This document shows positions 2,511 to 48,429 of a DNA stretch of 48,625 bases, piece by piece. Source of the stretch: Candidatus Thalassarchaeaceae archaeon (GTDB taxonomy: Archaea > Thermoplasmatota > Poseidoniia > Poseidoniales > Thalassarchaeaceae); contig JASLKT010000005.1 in NCBI GenBank assembly GCA_030747395.1, positions 1 to 48,625 on the forward strand. Direction: 5' to 3'. The notes under the pieces were generated by a model. It saw only the letters and a list, made by a program, of their open reading frames with translations. It did not search any database and was not told the origin of the DNA. Numbering within the stretch: the first letter of the stretch is position 1; each line of letters starts with the position of its first letter. A program made the position numbers and the translations under genes.

Positions 2511-3287
2511 CTACGACGAAGTCAGGGACCATCCGCCATCAACATCAATGATCTGTCCAGTGATGTAGGATGGGCCGCAAACTAGGAACAAAACGGTCTC
2601 TGCAATTTCTTCTGCTGAACCCTGTCGCTCCATCGGTATAGATGAAAGGACTGCGTCCCTTCTTTGTTCAGATTCCCATTCCTGAAACAGTATCGCACCC
2701 GGGCCCACTGCATTGACTCTAATGGACGGTGCAAGTTCCTGAGCCAGACTTCGTGTGATTGAGAGCAAAGCCGCCTTAGATGCGCAATAATGACTGAATT
2801 CAGGCCAATCCCTTCGCCCACTTGCATTGTCAAGCATATTGATGACACAACCTGGTTGATCGACTCCTTCAAATCGAAGATGGGGCGCGGCATGTTGAAT
2901 CAACATCAATGGGGCTTCTGCATTGACTCTCCACATCATTTGTGCCGCATCGGAAGTCATGTCCTCCAGAGGTATTTTTTCAAATATAGAGGCGTTGTTT
3001 ACGAGGATGTCGAATCGACCTGCACGTTCGATAACTGAATCGATTAGGCTTGCCCTATCTTCTTCTTCGGAGAGATCGCCACGAACCACGAATGCTTCTC
3101 CACCAATGGATTCGATTTCCTCGACCAAATCTTCGGCAGCTGCGAGGCTTCTGTGGCAGTGTATGGCGACGATGGCTCCTGCATTTGCAAGAGTTCTGGA
3201 AATTTGAGCACCGAGCCGAGTGGCCCCTCCGGTCACCAATGCAACCTTGTCCTCGAGGTCAGCGCCCATGTCGCTTGGAAGCGTCAC
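2511..3287 (-). CDS. SDR-family oxidoreductase, pteridine-reductase-like
   Basis: A 258-residue classical short-chain dehydrogenase/reductase. The Rossmann glycine motif TGGATRLG (about residues 19-26) binds NAD(P)H, NNAS follows the fourth strand, and the catalytic Y-C-A-S-K supplies the Tyr/Lys pair. Two stretches resemble the PTR1/FolM group more than FabG: NNASIF, and the block RVNAVGPGAILFQE before the C-terminal TGQIIDVDGG. Those enzymes reduce dihydropterins or dihydrofolate with NADPH, which would fit folB and folP elsewhere in this window. General SDR activity is certain; pteridine specificity is inferred from motif likeness. The GTG at 3287 has AAGGA just upstream; an ATG at 3269 would shorten the protein by six residues. 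It is divergent from lipA. Confidence 0.85.
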   Translation of the reverse strand: MTLPSDMGADLEDKVALVTGGATRLGAQISRTLANAGAIVAIHCHRSLAAAEDLVEEIESIGGEAFVVRGDLSEEEDRASLIDSVIERAGRFDILVNNASIFEKIPLEDMTSDAAQMMWRVNAEAPLMLIQHAAPHLRFEGVDQPGCVINMLDNASGRRDWPEFSHYCASKAALLSITRSLAQELAPSIRVNAVGPGAILFQEWESEQRRDAVLSSIPMERQGSAEEIAETVLFLVCGPSYITGQIIDVDGGWSLTSS

Positions 3288-3307
3288 TTATCCTTGAACG
3301 CTCCGAG

Positions 3308-3325
3308 CCCGACCCTAGGGTCGGG
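3308..3325. promoter_or_regulatory. 18-bp perfect palindrome in the SDR-lipA divergent gap
   Basis: CCCGACCCT is followed directly by its reverse complement AGGGTCGGG. It lies 20 bp from the SDR start and 53 bp from the lipA start, between divergently transcribed genes, so it cannot be a terminator for either. As DNA it could be an operator for a dimeric regulator; as RNA it would form a 7-bp stem with a CTAG loop in a 5' leader. Its function is not known. Confidence 0.5.
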
Positions 3326-3378
3326 AAACAAAGGATTAACCGAGTCCGATGTTGACACGGCACACAGGAGTGGTGTTC

Positions 3379-4374
3379 ATGACAGGGAAACGTCTGCCTA
3401 TGACCAATGAATCCGCCCCTCTCACGGCGATTGAGCGCCGAAAAAAATCTCGCAAAAGATTGCCACCTTGGTTCAAAACATATCTGCCAACCGGTGATGC
3501 GCAAATCGCATTCAATGATGTCCGTGGTAGTGTTTCCGAGCATGGATTGAATACAGTTTGTCAGGAAGCACAATGCCCGAATATTCACGATTGTTGGGGA
3601 CGAGGAACGGCTACGTTCATGGTCGCTGGTGAACAATGCACTCGAGCGTGCCGATTCTGTGCGGTTGGTACTGTCAAAGTTCCACCTCCTTTGGATGTTG
3701 ATGAGCCCGAAAAATTAGCTGAAGCCGTTGATTTGATGGGAGTTACACATGCGGTCATAACCTGTGTCAATCGGGATGAGCTCCCAGATGGAGGCGCAGA
3801 CCACTATCGCGCCTGTTTAGAGGCTGTTCACACACGCCGTCCCGATGTTGGCCTCGAATTTCTTTGCTCTGATTTAGATGGTAATCTCGATGCACTTTCG
3901 ACATTATTGGATGGGTTGGAATTGCGTGTTTTTGCGCATAACGTTGAATGTGTTCCTCGCTTAGATTCCGTAGTCCGAGATCATCGTGCATCGTTCCAGC
4001 AATCTCTAGAAATTCTGAAGGAAGCAAAGCGTCTCCGACCCGACATTTTGACCAAATCGAGCATCATGGTGGGTGTCGGTGAAACTGATGAAGAAGTGGT
4101 GGGGGCCATGAGACTTCTTCGTGAAGTTGATGTGGATTTATTGACCATTGGCCAATACCTCGCTCCATCTCCAAGTCACTTGACTGTCGATCGATTTCCT
4201 GAGCCCGAAGTCTTCGTAAAGTGGGATGAAAAGGCTAGAGAATTGGGTTTCAAAGCCGTCGCTTGTGGACCACTGGTACGTTCATCCTATCGAGCAGGTC
4301 TCCTCTACGAGGAGGCAAAAGGTGGGCCTGTAACCCTCACCTACGGTGAATCTTGTATCAGCGAAACGCTATGA
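3379..4374 (+). CDS. lipA: Lipoyl synthase
   Basis: Radical-SAM enzyme that inserts two sulfurs into octanoyl groups on carrier proteins to make lipoate. The protein has 331 residues from the preferred start. Both iron-sulfur signatures are present: an N-terminal auxiliary-cluster motif (CQEAQCPNIHDC) and the radical-SAM CxxxCxxC (CTRACRFC). The conserved C-terminal RSSYRAG segment, which contains a serine ligand of the auxiliary cluster, is also present. The ATG at 3379 is chosen because AGGAG lies about 8 bp upstream; an ATG at 3349 would add ten unconserved residues. The stop overlaps the start of the E1-alpha gene (ATGA), so translation is probably coupled. Placement directly before the 2-oxoacid dehydrogenase genes points to E2 as its substrate; lipB lies just beyond that cluster. 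Confidence 0.97.
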   Translation: MTGKRLPMTNESAPLTAIERRKKSRKRLPPWFKTYLPTGDAQIAFNDVRGSVSEHGLNTVCQEAQCPNIHDCWGRGTATFMVAGEQCTRACRFCAVGTVKVPPPLDVDEPEKLAEAVDLMGVTHAVITCVNRDELPDGGADHYRACLEAVHTRRPDVGLEFLCSDLDGNLDALSTLLDGLELRVFAHNVECVPRLDSVVRDHRASFQQSLEILKEAKRLRPDILTKSSIMVGVGETDEEVVGAMRLLREVDVDLLTIGQYLAPSPSHLTVDRFPEPEVFVKWDEKARELGFKAVACGPLVRSSYRAGLLYEEAKGGPVTLTYGESCISETL

Positions 4375-40478: not shown

Positions 40479-41270
40479 TTGGTTTCAATCGAAGCACTAG
40501 GAGTGGTCACACTTCTCCTGATTGTGGTTGTTCTATTCAGCCCGATTGGATTGGGTGGCGGATTGCTCTACGTGCCGATTCTTCACTATGTGGCGGGACT
40601 GCCTTTCGATACCGCCATCCTCGGATCTCTCGTCATGGTGCTCTGTACAGCATTGGGCAGTGCACAGGCGCATCGGTCCGAACAACTGGTCAGTTTGGAC
40701 CATGTTAAGGTCGCTGTGAAGACGGCACTGCCTGCGGCAATCGTCGGTGCTTTGGCGAGCATCTGGACCATCGAACATGTGAGCGATGTAACCGTCAAAG
40801 TCATCGCACTATGCCTGACGTCCTGGGTGCTGTACCAGACCATCCGTAGAATGCGTTCGGAAATTGTCGTGACCGAGGGTGAGTTCGACCCCAAATTGTA
40901 CAGAATCGGCACAGGGGTAGGTGGCCTGGCCTGTGGAATGCTCGGCATCGGGGGTGGCGCAATTTACGTCACGATGAATCGAGGCTGGGGGGGGCTCGGT
41001 GTGCGTGACGCAGCCGGGACATCGTTCGCCATCGCCTCGCTGGTGGTGCCGGTCGCCATCACCACACATTCAATTGCTAGGGGTTGGGGAGAATTGGCGG
41101 AAATAGAGACTCTATTGCTCGTCTGTACACCGATTCTAGCATTGGGATTCGCCTATATGGGCGGCCGATTCTCCTTCAAGAATCTGCCAACCTCAGCCAT
41201 CACTTGGGTGTTCATCACCATGGTCAGCATAAGTCTGCTAAGATATCTCACTGACCTTATTTCGGCATGA
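40479..41270 (+). CDS. TSUP (TauE/SafE) family permease
   Basis: A 263-residue membrane protein with about eight helices. The two half-repeats each begin with a Gly-rich segment: FSPIGLGGGLLYVPIL and GGLACGMLGIGGGAIYV, the TSUP hallmark. The family moves sulfite, sulfonates, sulfoacetate or other organic anions. The start appears to be TTG at 40479, with GAGGG upstream; no ATG exists before the first conserved helix. Its 3' end overlaps that of the convergent molybdoenzyme gene by 14 bp. A sulfur substrate would suit the neighbouring complex, but this is context only. Confidence 0.86.
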   Translation: MVSIEALGVVTLLLIVVVLFSPIGLGGGLLYVPILHYVAGLPFDTAILGSLVMVLCTALGSAQAHRSEQLVSLDHVKVAVKTALPAAIVGALASIWTIEHVSDVTVKVIALCLTSWVLYQTIRRMRSEIVVTEGEFDPKLYRIGTGVGGLACGMLGIGGGAIYVTMNRGWGGLGVRDAAGTSFAIASLVVPVAITTHSIARGWGELAEIETLLLVCTPILALGFAYMGGRFSFKNLPTSAITWVFITMVSISLLRYLTDLISA

Positions 41271-43986
41271 ACCAATGCTTTTTCTGCGGAGATAATGGAC
41301 GTTTCATCCACAGGGGTCGGCGTTCCCCCCTTGGATGCGTCTCTTTCTCGAGAGCCATCTCGTTCCACTTCTTGTAGTAAGCAAACGATTTCTCCGTATC
41401 GACTTCAACGTCACCATACTGTTCATCAGGACCTGGTTTGGAAAGACGAACCTTTTGCAACCAACAGTGCGCACCAGAGATTGGATCTGGTTGGACTGCG
41501 TGCGTAATATTCTGGTGTACGCCACCGTCTCTCCACCAGATTCGGTTTGTGTCAGGGTCCACTGACTCAAAGGGCTGCACGCCACTTACTGTGCGCATAC
41601 GCATCTTTCCATCGCCTTGGTCATCAATCTTGACCTCGTTGGTTAGGAAGCGATTTCCACGATCTTGACTGCGCCTCCAGCGCCCAATGTGGTGACTACA
41701 TCCGACGACACCTGGCTTGATGCTCTCCGTTACCCAAACCTTGTCGACGAACCAACCAATCTCCGTTTCAATCTTGAGAAGGTCGCCCTCTTCAATACCA
41801 AGCTTGGCCGCATCCTTCGGATGAATCCAAATAGGGTTGCGATGGGCAATTTCCACCAACCACTTGGCATTTGCAGAACGAGAATGGATATGTTGAGGTA
41901 ATCGGAAGTTGGGTAACAAGCAGTATTCGTCCTCGCCGGTTAATCTAGAAGGGTGAACCTGACTTTTGACTCTGAAGTGTGGAATGGCGTGTTCAGGATA
42001 ACCAAAATCAATCATGGTCTGTGAATAGAACTCCTGCTTGCCACTGGGTGTTGGCCAGCCTTCCTCCTTGTGCTTCTCATAGGTGGCTGGTTCGATCATG
42101 AATGCGCCATGCTTACGCATGTAATCCAGTTCAGTCACATCCTCTTCTTTGGCCGCCTCAGGTAGCCCTGGGACACGCTCGAATAGGAATTGATAATATT
42201 CATCGATTGTGATTGATTCACCCGGTCTATAGGGTGATTCGAAGTGCTTCTTGATGCCCATTTCCCCATCGGGATCGATACGGAGGCTGAGTTCATTCCA
42301 GAACTCATCTTCCTCCCACACTTCACCGGGATTTATTTCGTAGGTGAAGGTGACATCCTTGCCCTCACGGCGTGCATATTCACGCAAGACGGGTTGGCGG
42401 AAAGCAACCCACTTCCCTGAACTCGTCGCATAGGAATTGACGTCGTGCCGCTCAGAAGCGTGGCCCATTGGCAGAACGTAATCGGCGAAGAAGGCAGTCT
42501 CGTTCCATGTTGGAGTCAGTGCAATGTGACAACCGATGCTGTCTTCATTCTGCAGCATTTCCATCCAAGAGAATCCATCTGGATAGGTCCACACCGGATT
42601 GAATACACGGGTGAAGTAGACATCCATCGTCCCACGTCCATCTTTGACCAAGTGTGGCAGGATGTGACTCATCTCATAGTGGGCCAGCATGTATTCGGGT
42701 GGGAAATGTAACTCGTTCCATCCATCTGGATCAGGAGGGTTGTCGAATAATTCTGGCTTGAATTTGGACCATGAATTGGGTGCGGTACCACCCTCAGTCC
42801 CAACACTACCAGTCAGTACATTGAGGAAGTGCAACGCCCGACTGACCTGCCAACCACCGAGATTCCCAATCGCTGCACTACGCCACACATGTGTGCAAAG
42901 TTGAGTGCCGGCATTCGCCACCGCCTCACCAGCTTCAATGACTTGTTCAACAGGAATGCGACATTCTTCTGCAGCATATTCGGGTGTGTATTCTGCATAT
43001 TCATCGAGCAACAATTCAAGGAATCTTTCGTAGGTGCATTCCTCACTGGAGTGAACGGCTTTCATCCAATCCTGCCAGTTGACTTGATTCTCGACGAAGT
43101 CACGATTGACCAAACCCTTCTCCACAATCATCCGTGCCCAGCACAGGAATAGTGCCGGTTCGGAACCGGGCCACGTTGGCAACCAATGGTCAGCCATCGC
43201 TGCGGTATTGGATAACCGTGGATCAATGACGATCAGTTTGGCACCATCCATCATACCTTCCAAAATTCTCTGTGCGTGAGGATTGAAGTAATGGCCCGTT
43301 TCCAAATGGGAGGACGAGAGTAAGATGACCTTGGCGTTGGCGTGGTCTGGAGATGGTCGATCGTGCTGGTGCCACAATGCGTAACCGGTTCGAGCACCTG
43401 CACTGCAAATGTTGGTGTGTGAATTGTGACCATCCACACCCCATGCCTTGAGGACACGATTGGTGTATCCCTCATGTCCTGGACGACCGACGTGATAGAC
43501 AACTCGATCTTTGGCACCAGTCTTCAGAGAGGTGCGAATCTTGGCGGCAATCTCATCCAATGCTTGACTCCAAGAGATTTGTTCCCAGCCACCCTCACCG
43601 CGCTTTCCAACACGCTTCATCGGGTGCAAGATTCTCTCTGTGTCCTGAATTTGGTTGATTGTGGCTGGTCCTTTGGCACAATTCCGACCGCGTGAACCAG
43701 GGTGATGTGGATTGCCCTCGAACTTCTGAACTTCCCCACTCTCCTTGTCAACATAGGCGAGCAAGCCACAAGCGGATTCGCAGTTGAAGCAAGTGGTTGG
43801 AACCAAACTGTACCGCTTCTCAATTTGCTCAGGCCATGCCTGAGCATCCAGTTCAACATGGTCATTCCACTCTTCAGGAGATGGGAATTTGCGTAGTGGA
43901 GCACCTGTGCCCTGCGGGCTCTTTCTATCCAGATTCGGAATAATCCGCAAATTCTGTGCGATTTTCTCTAGGAATGAACGTGCCAT
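41257..43986 (-). CDS. Molybdopterin-dependent oxidoreductase, catalytic subunit
   Basis: A 909-residue Mo/W-bisPGD enzyme of the DMSO-reductase superfamily. An N-terminal 4Fe-4S site is formed by C66, C69, C73 and C103 (CFNCESAC and RNCAKG). NICSAGARTGY supplies a probable Mo-ligand cysteine, C194, as in the polysulfide/thiosulfate reductase and NapA-type groups. The dinucleotide-binding C-terminal domain (LPNFRLPQHIHSRS on) is complete. There is no twin-arginine signal at the N-terminus (MARSFLEKIAQNL), so it should face the cytoplasm. The substrate is unknown. It starts 11 bp after the FeS-NrfD subunit gene and forms a complex with it. Confidence 0.93.
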   Translation of the reverse strand: MARSFLEKIAQNLRIIPNLDRKSPQGTGAPLRKFPSPEEWNDHVELDAQAWPEQIEKRYSLVPTTCFNCESACGLLAYVDKESGEVQKFEGNPHHPGSRGRNCAKGPATINQIQDTERILHPMKRVGKRGEGGWEQISWSQALDEIAAKIRTSLKTGAKDRVVYHVGRPGHEGYTNRVLKAWGVDGHNSHTNICSAGARTGYALWHQHDRPSPDHANAKVILLSSSHLETGHYFNPHAQRILEGMMDGAKLIVIDPRLSNTAAMADHWLPTWPGSEPALFLCWARMIVEKGLVNRDFVENQVNWQDWMKAVHSSEECTYERFLELLLDEYAEYTPEYAAEECRIPVEQVIEAGEAVANAGTQLCTHVWRSAAIGNLGGWQVSRALHFLNVLTGSVGTEGGTAPNSWSKFKPELFDNPPDPDGWNELHFPPEYMLAHYEMSHILPHLVKDGRGTMDVYFTRVFNPVWTYPDGFSWMEMLQNEDSIGCHIALTPTWNETAFFADYVLPMGHASERHDVNSYATSSGKWVAFRQPVLREYARREGKDVTFTYEINPGEVWEEDEFWNELSLRIDPDGEMGIKKHFESPYRPGESITIDEYYQFLFERVPGLPEAAKEEDVTELDYMRKHGAFMIEPATYEKHKEEGWPTPSGKQEFYSQTMIDFGYPEHAIPHFRVKSQVHPSRLTGEDEYCLLPNFRLPQHIHSRSANAKWLVEIAHRNPIWIHPKDAAKLGIEEGDLLKIETEIGWFVDKVWVTESIKPGVVGCSHHIGRWRRSQDRGNRFLTNEVKIDDQGDGKMRMRTVSGVQPFESVDPDTNRIWWRDGGVHQNITHAVQPDPISGAHCWLQKVRLSKPGPDEQYGDVEVDTEKSFAYYKKWNEMALEKETHPRGERRPLWMKRPLSPQKKHWFMPK

Positions 43987-43997
43987 GATTCTTCACC

Positions 43998-45476
43998 TCA
44001 GAGTAATGGCTCCATCTGGGCCTTTCGCAGCCCTTCCCGAATATGTAGAACACCGAAATTGACCACCACAACGAGTAGGGTCACCGGTACCAAAGTGGTA
44101 ACCACATCTTGTCCGACCAAATTCCCTGACATGGCAGTTTCAACAAGCAGAACAAGTAGGGGCACACACAGGATTGTCATACACCCAAAGAAGGCCATTT
44201 CAAGTAAACCAATAGTGAAAATTTGTAGATTTGATCGGTTCGCCCAAATTGAACGCCCCTTGGCTTGCTTGAGTAACCACCCTGTGTAGGTCCCAGTCAG
44301 AAGGGCTAGAACGATGCCTACACCTCCAATTAAGGGATGCATGGAGGGGTCAATTCCGAACATGAAGATGACGATATGAGCCGTTAGAATGGCCCCGAAG
44401 CCAGTGAGGAAATAGGCGCCAATGACAAGCCAAGATGACCAATTCGGACGCAATAATACGTAGAGGAAACGCTCTGGTCGATCCAAATCCTTGACGAGAA
44501 GAATGCCTGTGAAACCGAGAAGAACCAATGAAGAGACAGCCACGGATTCAATTCCAATCATCAAGTGCCATTCAGGGAACACGAATAGGGAAATCCAGTA
44601 CAGAACATACAATCCACTCGCTGCAGCCTTCGTAGCAATGTAAGCTGCAACTTCGGTATCCCACAAGATTCCCTTGCTTGGTTGATCATAGGCACGGGTG
44701 GCCTTGGGCGAATCACCTTCGAGTTTCTCCATCACATCACGAATGATGGCTTGATCTCGTGGATTTGCCGCCTTTGCCTTCTTTTCCAAGGCAAGTTGAA
44801 CCAACATCGAAGGTGTATCTGCTTCAGCCAATCTCGAATCTGCATACTTGGCAAAATGGCCGACGCCATGAGCTTGGTCTGTCCACATCCCAATCCCCGT
44901 CACTTCTGTTGCATCAGGGTTGAGCATCTCATCACTTGTTTCAACATAGTAGACATTGGGTTTGGTTCCAGCCTCAGGTTTACGCACCTTGACTTCATTC
45001 TCAGCAACGAGAATGGAAATTGGCGACTCTGGGTCATCTAGGTCTCCACTCACAATGGATTCGGTTGGACAGACGATGACACACGCCGGCTCGTAGGCAT
45101 TCTCAACACGGTGAGCACAGTAGTTGCATTTGGCGGCTGTGCCTTGATTTGGATCGATATACAATGCATCGTAAGGACATGCTTGCATACACGACTTACA
45201 GCCAATACACCGGTCATTGTCGAAATCTACAATCCCATCTTCACGCGTAAACAATGCGTAGGTTGGGCAGATGGTTGTGCAAGGTGCATCCTCACAATGG
45301 TTGCAGCGATGGACGCTGAATTCTCTTGAGGAATCAGGATAGGTGCCGGTCTCGATGTACTTGACGTGAGTGCGATTGACACCAATGGGCACATCGTGTT
45401 CGGACTTGCATGCCACCGTGCAAGCGTGGCAACCAATGCAGGTTCGATTGTCGATGACGAATCCATAGTTGACCAT
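43998..45476 (-). CDS. Fused four-cluster ferredoxin and NrfD-like membrane subunit
   Basis: A 492-residue fusion of two subunits that are usually separate. Residues 1-150 are a DmsB/NrfC-type electron-transfer domain with 16 cluster Cys in four groups: C13-C16-C19-C23, C58-C61-C66-C70, C90-C93-C96-C100 and C117-C120-C132-C136, enough for four 4Fe-4S clusters. A linker of about 130 residues, partly charged, leads to a membrane part from about residue 285 with about six to eight helices and the NrfD signature DLDRPERF followed by PNWSSW. NrfD domains exchange electrons with quinones. No Tat signal is present. It sits between the Asp-box lipoprotein and the Mo enzyme genes with 9-11 bp spacers. 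Confidence 0.93.
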   Translation of the reverse strand: MVNYGFVIDNRTCIGCHACTVACKSEHDVPIGVNRTHVKYIETGTYPDSSREFSVHRCNHCEDAPCTTICPTYALFTREDGIVDFDNDRCIGCKSCMQACPYDALYIDPNQGTAAKCNYCAHRVENAYEPACVIVCPTESIVSGDLDDPESPISILVAENEVKVRKPEAGTKPNVYYVETSDEMLNPDATEVTGIGMWTDQAHGVGHFAKYADSRLAEADTPSMLVQLALEKKAKAANPRDQAIIRDVMEKLEGDSPKATRAYDQPSKGILWDTEVAAYIATKAAASGLYVLYWISLFVFPEWHLMIGIESVAVSSLVLLGFTGILLVKDLDRPERFLYVLLRPNWSSWLVIGAYFLTGFGAILTAHIVIFMFGIDPSMHPLIGGVGIVLALLTGTYTGWLLKQAKGRSIWANRSNLQIFTIGLLEMAFFGCMTILCVPLLVLLVETAMSGNLVGQDVVTTLVPVTLLVVVVNFGVLHIREGLRKAQMEPLL

Positions 45477-45485
45477 GCGGTCACC

Positions 45486-46973
45486 TCACATCTTCAGGGT
45501 TGAATTGCCCCCAGCAGGTAAAATATCGAGCATTGTGATGTTGTCACCAAACAAACTTGGTCCGGTGATCCAAGTGCCAATCACAGCTTCCTCATTGTTG
45601 ACATTGTGTGCGAGTGCCACCCATGGACGGCCTTGGTCATCAATTTCGATATCGATGAAATCACCAAATCCACCACAGCGAACATCGCCACAATCATCAG
45701 TCATGTCGAGCATGTCTCCGAATTCATTGACCATGGTAGTGGTAATCAGGGGATAAGTTGCATTGGCGTCAGTAATGGCCCCTAGGAATCCACCCCAACC
45801 TCCGCCATCGGTGAATTCTCCAATGTAAGCAAAGGCGACTCGACCATCTGCACCAGCATGGATTGTTGGGAAACCTGCCTCCTCGATGCCTGGCGCAGCG
45901 ACCATGATAGGTTCTCTCCAAGTATCGCCATGATCTGTGGACCAACTGACCCAGGGCATCATTCCGTCACCAATCCACATCCCGTAGAGGTTGCCAGCAG
46001 CGTCGGTTGCTGTGGCTACTTCGTGGCTGTGCCATCCTTGTTGCATTCCAACTTCTGTTGTAATCGTGTGTTCAGTCCAACTGTATCCGCCATCATCGCT
46101 TGCATAGACTGCTGGACCCTCACAAGAAGGGTTTCCGCGATACACCCAGCCGTCTATGGAGCCAACAACGTGGCCGTGCAACCCACTGCACTGGGTGGTC
46201 AGAGGTGAACCAGGTAATTGCAAATCCCATGTGTGTCCCCCATCTAAGGAACGGGAACACTGAGGACCAGCAATCGAGGTTCCAGTGTTGATGCAATAGA
46301 CATAGATGGTCTCGTAGGAACCTTGGCCATCGACATCTACGGTAGAAGCGATACTTTGGTGATCTTGTGGAGTATAATATCCGTAAGCAGTGAAAGGTGG
46401 ACTCCAAGTGTCTCCTCCATCATCTGAATACTCAACATACATCGATACAAGTGCATGCATGTCGAACTTGACTATGCGGTCCGTCCATGGATCGACATAG
46501 ATGTACGGGTCATTCGAATTGGGGACCTGGCCACCAGGATACACCTGTCCGAATGGACCAACATTTTCCCAAGTCTGCCCTTGATCCTGACTGCGGATAA
46601 TCATCGTCCCTGTGCCTGAACCACCCCAGTTTGTGAACACAATCGTGCCATCAGACAGAATGCCTAGTGTTGGCTCAAAGGTATCGTATCCAGTGCCATA
46701 GTAGGTCCCATTTGCCCAGTAAGGGACGTTGGAACCGTTGAACATGTCCATCGAGAATCCGCGCTCAGCCATGGCCTCTGCATCAAGGATATCAGTGGCA
46801 TTCTGGGAACTAGGACTACCGCCTACGTGATACCAAACACCGGGTGCAATCGCTTCCTCAAATCCGAACGGATGATCAGGTGCAGCGGGAGGTTTGGCAT
46901 CTTCGCCGAAGCACCCCATCAAGGTAGGCAATACGAGTAGTAACACCAAGACAGTGCTCACGCGTGTGCGCAT
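45486..46973 (-). CDS. Secreted lipoprotein with Asp-box (BNR) beta-propeller
   Basis: A 495-residue exported protein. The N-terminal basic-hydrophobic signal ends in a lipobox (L18-M19-G20-C21), so it is probably lipid-anchored on the outside. Five Asp-box repeats are visible: SQDQGQTW, SDDGGDTW, SLDGGHTW, SDDGGYSW and STDHGDTW, giving a six-bladed-propeller-like sialidase fold. The sialidase Arg triad and FRIP motif are not apparent, so a binding or structural role is as likely as glycan hydrolysis. It lies 9 bp upstream of the FeS-NrfD gene. Its ATG abuts a strong inverted repeat at 46974-46992. Confidence 0.88.
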   Translation of the reverse strand: MRTRVSTVLVLLLVLPTLMGCFGEDAKPPAAPDHPFGFEEAIAPGVWYHVGGSPSSQNATDILDAEAMAERGFSMDMFNGSNVPYWANGTYYGTGYDTFEPTLGILSDGTIVFTNWGGSGTGTMIIRSQDQGQTWENVGPFGQVYPGGQVPNSNDPYIYVDPWTDRIVKFDMHALVSMYVEYSDDGGDTWSPPFTAYGYYTPQDHQSIASTVDVDGQGSYETIYVYCINTGTSIAGPQCSRSLDGGHTWDLQLPGSPLTTQCSGLHGHVVGSIDGWVYRGNPSCEGPAVYASDDGGYSWTEHTITTEVGMQQGWHSHEVATATDAAGNLYGMWIGDGMMPWVSWSTDHGDTWREPIMVAAPGIEEAGFPTIHAGADGRVAFAYIGEFTDGGGWGGFLGAITDANATYPLITTTMVNEFGDMLDMTDDCGDVRCGGFGDFIDIEIDDQGRPWVALAHNVNNEEAVIGTWITGPSLFGDNITMLDILPAGGNSTLKM

Positions 46974-46992
46974 AGACCGCCGAAGGCGGTCT
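46974..46992 (-). repeat. 8/3/8 perfect inverted repeat touching the lipoprotein start codon
   Basis: On the minus strand AGACCGCC and GGCGGTCT flank TTC, and the next base is the A of the ATG. It lies 33 bp after the flotillin stop. There is no T-run and no room for a ribosome binding site between the stem and the ATG, so the hairpin would hide the initiation region if formed in the mRNA. Confidence 0.55.
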
Positions 46993-47025: not shown

Positions 47026-48429
47026 TTACTCGGAATCTTCAGTTACTGAACCCAAGTATTCGGGCAATTCGACGCCGGCCATCTTGGCAACATCATGCAT
47101 TGGAGGGAGGGTCTGAACAAGGCTGCTCACGAAGTTGGATGTGGCACCCTTACCGTCTTCCCCGTTACCTGAATCCCAAACAGTGATCTTGTCAATCTTG
47201 AGATTCTTGACCGCCTCAACTTGAGCGTTGACCATCGAGTCGACCTTCTCAACCATGAGTAGGGTTGCTGCAGCCTTGGCGTCTCCGCCAGCGCTTGCAA
47301 CAAGCATCTGGTAACCGGATGCTTTGGCTTCCAGAACCTTCTGGATACCTTCAGCTTCTGCGGTATAGCGAGCCAAGATTGCGTCTGCTTCACCACCAGC
47401 GATACGGCGCTGGCGCTCAGCCTCTGCTTCGGCTGCAATCTCAATCTGTGTCTTGGCGATTTCTTCGCGGACGATTTCTTCGGCCTTGAGACGTTCTTGT
47501 TCTAGCAAATACTGTGCCTTCTGAATTTCCATCTCGGCTGTTCTTGATGCGACTTCAGAACGACGCATGGCTTCGGCTTCTTTCTCAGCGAGTGTTGCAT
47601 TGTATTCAGCAATGTTCGCCTTGGAAGTGTTCTCACCTTCAATCGCCAATGACTCTTGGTTCTGAACGAAAATTCGCTGATCTGCACGAGCGGCCTTCTT
47701 ACCCTTCTCTGCCTCAGCCTCGTTCTCTGCAACTTGGATGTCACGTGCACGGTTTGCTTCTGCAGCACCGATTGCACCATCGCGGTCTGCAACTGCGACG
47801 TCAGCCTTTGCTGCGTTGACTGCAGTTGCAGCTGCCTTCTTACCAATGCTCTCGATGTATTCGGAGTCATCTGTAATATCTGTGATGTTCACGTTGATGA
47901 GTTCCAAACCAAGTTTGTGCAACTCATGTCCAACGTTGGTACGAATGGACTCAAGGAAGTTGTCACGGTCTTGGTTAATCTGCTCAATGGTTAGAGATGC
48001 GACGGTCAAACGAAGTTGTCCGAAAATAATCTCAGAGGCCATCTCCTCAATCTGTTGCTTGCTGAGGTGAAGTAGACGTTCTGCTGCATTGTTCATGAGA
48101 ACTGGATCGGTACTGATTCCGACAGTGAATGTGGATGGCACGTGGATACGAATGTTCTGTAACGAAAGTGCATTGGTCAAGTTAATCTGAATTGTCATTG
48201 GAACTAGACTTAGTTTCTTGTAATCCTGAAACAATGGAATCACAAATGTAGCACCACCGTGGATACAACGAGATGCCCTCGCCCCTTTAACGCGACCAAA
48301 CACGACGAGGATTTCGTCGGAGGCACATCGCTTGTAACGCGTTACAAGCATAATAAACATAAATGCCATCAATATCAAAATTGCAAAAATTATCATGACG
48401 CCCCAAGCGCCTGAACCATCATCAGCCAT
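47026..48429 (-). CDS. Flotillin-like SPFH-domain protein
   Basis: A 467-residue membrane scaffold protein. One N-terminal membrane helix (about residues 10-30) is followed by an SPFH/band-7 domain (about 35-200; DEILVVFGRVKG, then FTVGISTDPVLM) and a long Ala/Glu-rich coiled coil (about 205-370) typical of flotillins. The C-terminal part is soluble and acidic. Flotillins organise membrane microdomains as large oligomers. It follows the NfeD-like gene by 8 bp, the pairing seen in bacteria and archaea. Confidence 0.94.
   Translation of the reverse strand: MADDGSGAWGVMIIFAILILMAFMFIMLVTRYKRCASDEILVVFGRVKGARASRCIHGGATFVIPLFQDYKKLSLVPMTIQINLTNALSLQNIRIHVPSTFTVGISTDPVLMNNAAERLLHLSKQQIEEMASEIIFGQLRLTVASLTIEQINQDRDNFLESIRTNVGHELHKLGLELINVNITDITDDSEYIESIGKKAAATAVNAAKADVAVADRDGAIGAAEANRARDIQVAENEAEAEKGKKAARADQRIFVQNQESLAIEGENTSKANIAEYNATLAEKEAEAMRRSEVASRTAEMEIQKAQYLLEQERLKAEEIVREEIAKTQIEIAAEAEAERQRRIAGGEADAILARYTAEAEGIQKVLEAKASGYQMLVASAGGDAKAAATLLMVEKVDSMVNAQVEAVKNLKIDKITVWDSGNGEDGKGATSNFVSSLVQTLPPMHDVAKMAGVELPEYLGSVTEDSE

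Follow-up and report, generated by a model that had tools for sequence, protein, structure and literature searches.

Marine Group II (MGII) archaea, for which there are no cultured isolates, are abundant in surface oceans (PMC6336850). A locus from one of them, a member of the Poseidoniales (MGII), raises the question of which reaction is carried out by a molybdoenzyme encoded next to a fused iron-sulfur/NrfD membrane protein, and whether a third gene, for a lipoprotein, belongs to the same complex. The window, which is the whole stretch of 48,625 nucleotides analyzed here, contains these genes and their neighbors (Table 1).

The initial annotation described three closely spaced genes on the minus strand, and this description holds. 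The gap between the catalytic (MopB) gene and the fusion gene is 11 bp, and that between the fusion and lipoprotein genes is 9 bp. A GAGGTGA Shine-Dalgarno sequence precedes both downstream starts and adjoins or overlaps the stop of the gene before. The genome is compact throughout, and most co-directional genes in the window abut or overlap, so that close spacing by itself says little about whether a complex exists. The TauE/SafE gene is convergent to the catalytic gene, and their ends overlap by 14 bp. The Band-7/flotillin gene is a neighborhood marker outside the enzyme; it adjoins the lipoprotein gene in a locus that has no enzyme (L017) and the enzyme in a locus that has no lipoprotein (L088). 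Elsewhere in the genome of the window (locus L099, contig C58, 4084-9533, minus strand) is a gene for a formate dehydrogenase alpha subunit that scores above cut-off (801 bits) and is accompanied by a NuoF-like partner and FdhD. This genome therefore handles a second molybdoenzyme.

Table 1. Features of the locus, with coordinates in the window.
Feature	Coordinates	Strand	Basis
TauE/SafE (TSUP) exporter	40479..41270	(+)	Pfam TauE 4e-22
Catalytic subunit ORF, 909 aa	41257-43986	(-)	ORF list
MopB/DMSO-reductase superfamily protein, bis-MGD, SoeA-like	41257..43986	(-)	Pfam; invariant residues in 16 homologues
Cys194 codon, predicted Mo ligand	43405..43407	(-)	Invariant in homologue alignment
FeS-NrfD fusion ORF, 492 aa	43998-45476	(-)	ORF list
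NrfD-like membrane domain, residues 272-492	44001..44663	(-)	Pfam NrfD 1.9e-6
FeS domain, residues 1-180, SoeB/PsrB/TtrB-like	44937..45476	(-)	Pfam Fer4_11 etc.
Asp-box lipoprotein ORF, 495 aa	45486-46973	(-)	ORF list
Perfect GC hairpin, AGACCGCC-TTC-GGCGGTCT	46974..46992	(-)	Sequence
Band-7/flotillin gene, upstream of lipoprotein	47026..48429	(-)	Pfam Band_7

The molybdoenzyme and its fused partner

Pfam searches agree with the domain content first proposed for the three proteins: a MopB protein (Molybdop_Fe4S4, Molybdopterin and Molydop_binding), a four-cluster ferredoxin joined to NrfD, and an Asp-box lipoprotein. The N-terminal [4Fe-4S] cluster of the catalytic subunit is assigned to C66, C69, C73 and C103, and the 16 cysteines of the FeS domain correspond to four further [4Fe-4S] clusters. 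Cys194 aligns with the cysteines of PsrA (2vpw, ..SLCTAP..) and ArrA (6cz7, ..SSVCAEA..) that we take to be the molybdenum ligands. Cysteine ligation is also compatible with polysulfide, thiosulfate or arsenate enzymes. In a survey of the superfamily, SoeA is tabulated with Cys and a cytoplasmic location and DorA/TorA with Ser, and the bSreA/SoeA lineage has only five archaeal members (PMC10100899).

The closest solved relative of the catalytic subunit is the thiosulfate/polysulfide reductase PsrA (2vpw), and that of the FeS domain is PsrB (2vpw_B, 7e-50). No NCBIfam equivalog matches the catalytic subunit at its cut-off. The DmsA, PhsA, TtrA, ArrA and NapA models all score far below theirs; the best is PhsA with 184 versus 694 bits, and DmsA (TIGR02166) gives 182 versus 777.7 bits. 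No signal peptide was found on the catalytic subunit in MGII, haloarchaeal or Thermomicrobium homologues, nor was a Tat signal seen at the start of any homologue of the catalytic clade.

The catalytic gene is present in 20 of 59 relatives, a count that leaves out genomes whose sole match is a weak one to a different molybdoenzyme (21 with them). Among 293 Thermoplasmatota genomes it occurs in 26, of which 25 belong to the order of the window and one to the same class. The FeS-NrfD fusion lies directly upstream of MopB in every MGII locus where both genes are readable. Full-length homologues of both genes are also adjacent on plasmids of Natrinema, Halomicrococcus, Thermomicrobium roseum and Rhodococcus jostii, with identities over shared positions of 55-56% for the catalytic subunit and 42-45% for the fusion. 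The MopB and FeS-NrfD pair is thus real and conserved beyond what chance would give. The fusion had been considered unusual; its presence in haloarchaea, Rhodococcus and Thermomicrobium as well makes it a trait of a clade that crosses domains.

Maximum-likelihood reconstruction groups the MGII proteins, the plasmid homologues and a partial protein from Sulfurovum into a single clade with 100/100 support, apart from PhsA, DmsA, TtrA, NapA, NasA and FdhA, the families covered by a tree that includes neither PsrA, ArrA nor SoeA. The catalytic subunit therefore does not fall inside any of the sampled clades with standard subunits. Relations outside the clade are unsure because the branches to the outgroups are long. 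The Sulfurovum mangrovi plasmid homologue (L086, 8001-11169) has no annotated CDS and its catalytic gene is split over two frames, which is a frameshift or sequencing error. Of the plasmid matches at about 30% identity or less, those examined proved to be other enzymes: the Tat-type enzyme of Azoarcus and enzymes of the nitrate, formate, thiosulfate, tetrathionate and DMSO types. On the Azoarcus KH32C plasmid (L087, 6245-14136), a Tat-type MopB/FeS/NrfD/TorD cluster lies beside arsA and an ACR3 arsenite pump; it may be an Arx enzyme, although the arx paper makes no mention of this strain.

The membrane domain and its orientation

The fold search relates the NrfD part of the fusion to PsrC (2vpw_C, probability 1.00, E 2.3e-3). 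Hydropathy predicts six membrane segments in this part of the window protein, a crude segmentation that gives five helices in several MGII relatives. An AF2 model of the fusion has six long helices of fair to good confidence in its membrane half, which alone was used since the FeS half is poorly modeled (mostly below 50 pLDDT). Alignment gaps relative to the plasmid homologues agree with six helices. The fusions of Halomicrococcus, Thermomicrobium and Rhodococcus have eight, and NrfD proteins in general have 8-10 transmembrane helices (PMC8076601). On the basis of segmentation, alignment and model, the MGII NrfD part thus appears to be six-helical rather than eight-helical.

The distribution of Lys and Arg in the NrfD part indicates which side of the membrane the FeS domain occupies. 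The ratio of these residues on the FeS side to those on the other side is 12:0 in the window, 13:0 in Rhodococcus, 13:3 in Thermomicrobium and 11:1 in Halomicrococcus. The ratio is reversed in controls expected to be exported, namely the Azoarcus NrfD (2:10), TtrC (6:12) and DmsC (3:7), and the Azoarcus and TtrA catalytic subunits begin with Tat signals. The Halomicrobium NrfD has ten helices and belongs to a Tat-type cluster; its ratio of 21:7 lies outside this simple pattern, and its extra helices may put its N-terminus on the other side. A separate Sulfurovum NrfD (5:15) was left out, as its segmentation into helices looked wrong near the N-terminus. Under the positive-inside rule, the excess on the FeS side predicts that the FeS and catalytic parts lie on the cytoplasmic face. 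An external complex, as suggested at first, fits neither this charge pattern nor the lack of a Tat signal. SoeABC likewise faces the cytoplasmic side (PMC8076601).

Sulfur genes beside the pair and the probable reaction

The substrate, which had seemed wholly obscure, is suggested by the neighbors of the pair in other genomes. Nine MGII loci (L029, L093, L095, L096, L120-L123, L129) have the order ArsR-TusA-DsrE-PDO-FeS/NrfD-MopB, in which PDO, a persulfide dioxygenase homologue, is a protein of rhodanese and metallo-beta-lactamase domains. Pfam agrees on TusA and DsrE. The best solved relatives of PDO are 3tp9 (beta-lactamase/rhodanese), 3r2u (metallo-beta-lactamase family), 4chl (the ETHE1 persulfide dioxygenase) and 5ve3 (the BpPRF fusion). 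About 16 MGII loci, among them seven of the nine above, have a TauE/SafE gene adjoining MopB at its 3' end; in most, it is a diverged copy that shares the strand of MopB. Outside MGII, the order in Rhodococcus is a divergent PDO-like gene, DsrE, TusA, fusion, MopB and Mrp, and in two haloarchaeal loci (L084, L085) the pair is preceded by a PDO-like gene and TauE and followed by MobA, with Mrp also present in one. Neighbors of the PDO or TauE type are absent from the Natrinema (L083) and Thermomicrobium loci. A similar association is found in Acidithiobacillus caldus, where soeABC occurs together with rhd-tusA-dsrE (PMC6335251).

Eight of the nine strong PDO matches fall in the 26 of 293 genomes that carry MopB (Fisher p = 1e-8, in a test that treats these related genomes as independent, which they are not), and the ninth lies on a contig whose end cuts the PDO gene. 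PDO and DsrE are absent from the genus of the window, and of these sulfur-linked neighbors only TauE is present in the window itself. Since this genus keeps only the enzyme and the exporter, its sulfite must have another source. Taurine and sulfoacetaldehyde were considered as MGII sources and rejected: none of the 59 MGII genomes has TauD, and none has Xsc above cut-off.

The product of persulfide dioxygenase is sulfite, and a cytoplasmic, quinone-linked enzyme encoded next to it would therefore most simply serve to remove sulfite. From this context we infer the substrate, the direction of the reaction and the electron path. MopB and the fusion probably (at roughly 0.7) make up a sulfite:quinone oxidoreductase of two polypeptides that functions like SoeABC. 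The bis-MGD subunit would oxidize sulfite to sulfate in the cytoplasm. Two electrons would leave through its N-terminal [4Fe-4S] cluster, cross the FeS domain by way of its four clusters and reach a quinone site, located in the first bundle of helices of the fused NrfD domain; the quinone would then hand them on to respiration. In many relatives TusA/DsrE carriers would feed the rhodanese-persulfide dioxygenase, so that sulfite would be made beside the enzyme, and the TauE/SafE protein would export sulfur oxyanions. The specificity of the TauE family is not fixed, which counts against the sulfite reading. We call the pair SoeABC-like and do not count it as a member, since a fused anchor of six helices is at odds with that enzyme as described and the tree covered families other than SoeA.

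A more specific proposal, put forward tentatively and at somewhat less than even odds, is that the sulfite:quinone dehydrogenase of MGII is a minimal one of two polypeptides, in which the NrfD domain has lost two helices from its second four-helix bundle. If so, the quinone-reducing half would be kept and the second bundle would be incomplete, and the enzyme would pass electrons to respiration while lacking the ion pathway that has been proposed for NrfD proteins. Some of the commonest archaea of the surface ocean would then be sulfite and sulfur oxidizers and not DMSO respirers. The six-helix NrfD is a natural test of which half of this common respiratory subunit serves quinone chemistry and which serves ion movement.

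The enzyme might instead act in the same quinone-linked, cytoplasmic layout on another sulfur species, such as persulfide, thiosulfonate or thiosulfate carried on TusA/DsrE, with no free sulfite. The TusA and DsrE carriers in the operon of relatives and the identity of the nearest solved relative, PsrA, are consistent with this. It is nevertheless unlikely, as the PDO of the same operon would already convert persulfide to sulfite, leaving sulfite to remove, and a TauE/SafE gene is linked to the pair.

An anaerobic respiratory reductase of DMSO, polysulfide/thiosulfate, tetrathionate or arsenate is a poorer candidate still. The superfamily and subunit plan are those of the complex iron-sulfur molybdoenzyme reductases, and a gene set of the same kind, an MGII molybdopterin oxidoreductase with a 4Fe-4S protein and TraB, has been reported with a suggestion of DMSO respiration, citing Martin-Cuadrado 2008 (PMC6741140). 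TraB adjoins the MopB/fusion pair in many loci, so the two gene sets are probably the same. The low family-model scores, the well supported separate clade, a Cys rather than Ser/Asp ligand, the FeS domain on the inner face with no Tat signal, and the oxidative character of the sulfur neighbors all argue against a reductase. The evidence favors sulfite oxidation over the earlier DMSO-respiration annotation. A DMSO, thiosulfate, tetrathionate, nitrate or formate enzyme was likewise rejected as a candidate, on the grounds of the family scores, the tree, the residue at the ligand position and the orientation.

No report of a sulfite dehydrogenase or a persulfide-dioxygenase operon in the order Poseidoniales was found in the literature searched here. 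If sulfite oxidation is correct, part of MGII can draw energy from, or detoxify, sulfite and persulfide sulfur; the genomic hint of DMSO respiration in MGII would then have to be dropped.

The lipoprotein and comparison with known systems

The lipoprotein matches Pfam BNR_2 and has the lipobox LMGC, whose Gly-Cys is invariant across 25 homologues. Its AF2 model (pLDDT 84) is a beta-propeller with Asp boxes, and the nearest folds are the Photorhabdus PLL lectins (TM-score by target about 0.7) and sialidases. No sialidase NCBIfam model matched the lipoprotein, and no RIP motif was seen in its N-terminal region. It is predicted to be outside the cell, on the membrane face opposite to the catalytic side. 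The hairpin, which ends at the base before the start codon of the lipoprotein gene, recurs in five further loci of the genus, where GAACGATTGAAG immediately precedes it. It has no match in Rfam; translational control of the lipoprotein is a possible role.

The lipoprotein family is present in 58 of 59 genomes, usually in 2-3 copies that are often distant from any such molybdoenzyme, as against 20 of 59 for the enzyme. Members are near-universal in Poseidoniales and often occur as tandem pairs (many of L020-L079). Adjacency to the pair is found only in the genus of the window (the window, L013-L016 and L018) and in genus g2 (L097, G017). The lipoprotein gene is about 2.6 kb from the pair, past the sulfur genes, in L029, L095 and L096, and about 17 MGII loci have none beside the pair. 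For the most part, then, the lipoprotein gene in related genomes is not adjacent to the other two. Locus L017 (MED-G33) has the order Band7-lipoprotein-YeiH-TauE-thiolase and no enzyme pair; its YeiH-type transporter gene (PF03601) is at 2575-3555 on the plus strand. In L088, from the genus of the window, Band7 is followed directly by the pair, and the hairpin and an ATG remain as a scar of the missing gene. From this scar, the lipoprotein gene was most likely lost there while the pair stayed intact.

A three-part complex in which the lipoprotein is an external ligand-binding subunit is very unlikely: the 9 bp gap, the Shine-Dalgarno overlap and the adjacency in six loci of one genus and both g2 genomes are outweighed by the separation of lipoprotein and pair in both directions (L088, L017), by the loci and genomes that have one and not the other, and by the opposite membrane faces. 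Of the complex originally proposed, the quinone-linked molybdoenzyme with its fused FeS/NrfD partner stands, and the lipoprotein is probably a neighbor and no subunit.

Among known systems, SoeABC of Allochromatium vinosum and Aquifex aeolicus resembles the pair in its MopB protein with an N-terminal [4Fe-4S] cluster, Cys position and no signal peptide, in its four-cluster FeS protein, in its NrfD-type anchor and in its N-side orientation, which is predicted for the pair. SoeABC of A. caldus shares the rhd/TusA/DsrE neighbors of the relatives' loci. SoeABC differs in having three separate subunits, whereas FeS domain and anchor are fused in one gene of the window, and in its eight-helix anchor, which is apparently six-helical in MGII. 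The hosts differ too, that of the pair being an ocean archaeon. The likeness was drawn from published descriptions of SoeABC.

PsrABC/PhsABC (T. thermophilus, 2vpw) provides the best solved match for both catalytic and FeS parts, along with the Cys position and a PsrC-like fold. Those enzymes have a Tat signal and face outward, whereas the window enzyme has none, its charge distribution puts it on the inner face, and in the tree it stands apart from PhsA. DmsABC and the haloarchaeal DMSO reductase belong to the same superfamily and gave the MGII gene set its earlier annotation; they differ from the window enzyme, with its Cys194 and no Tat signal, in a Ser ligand to Mo (Asp in haloarchaea) and Tat export, and in orientation, clade and gene context. 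The lipoprotein, in turn, resembles the Photorhabdus PLL-type lectins and Asp-box sialidases in its Asp-box beta-propeller, at 10-18% identity.
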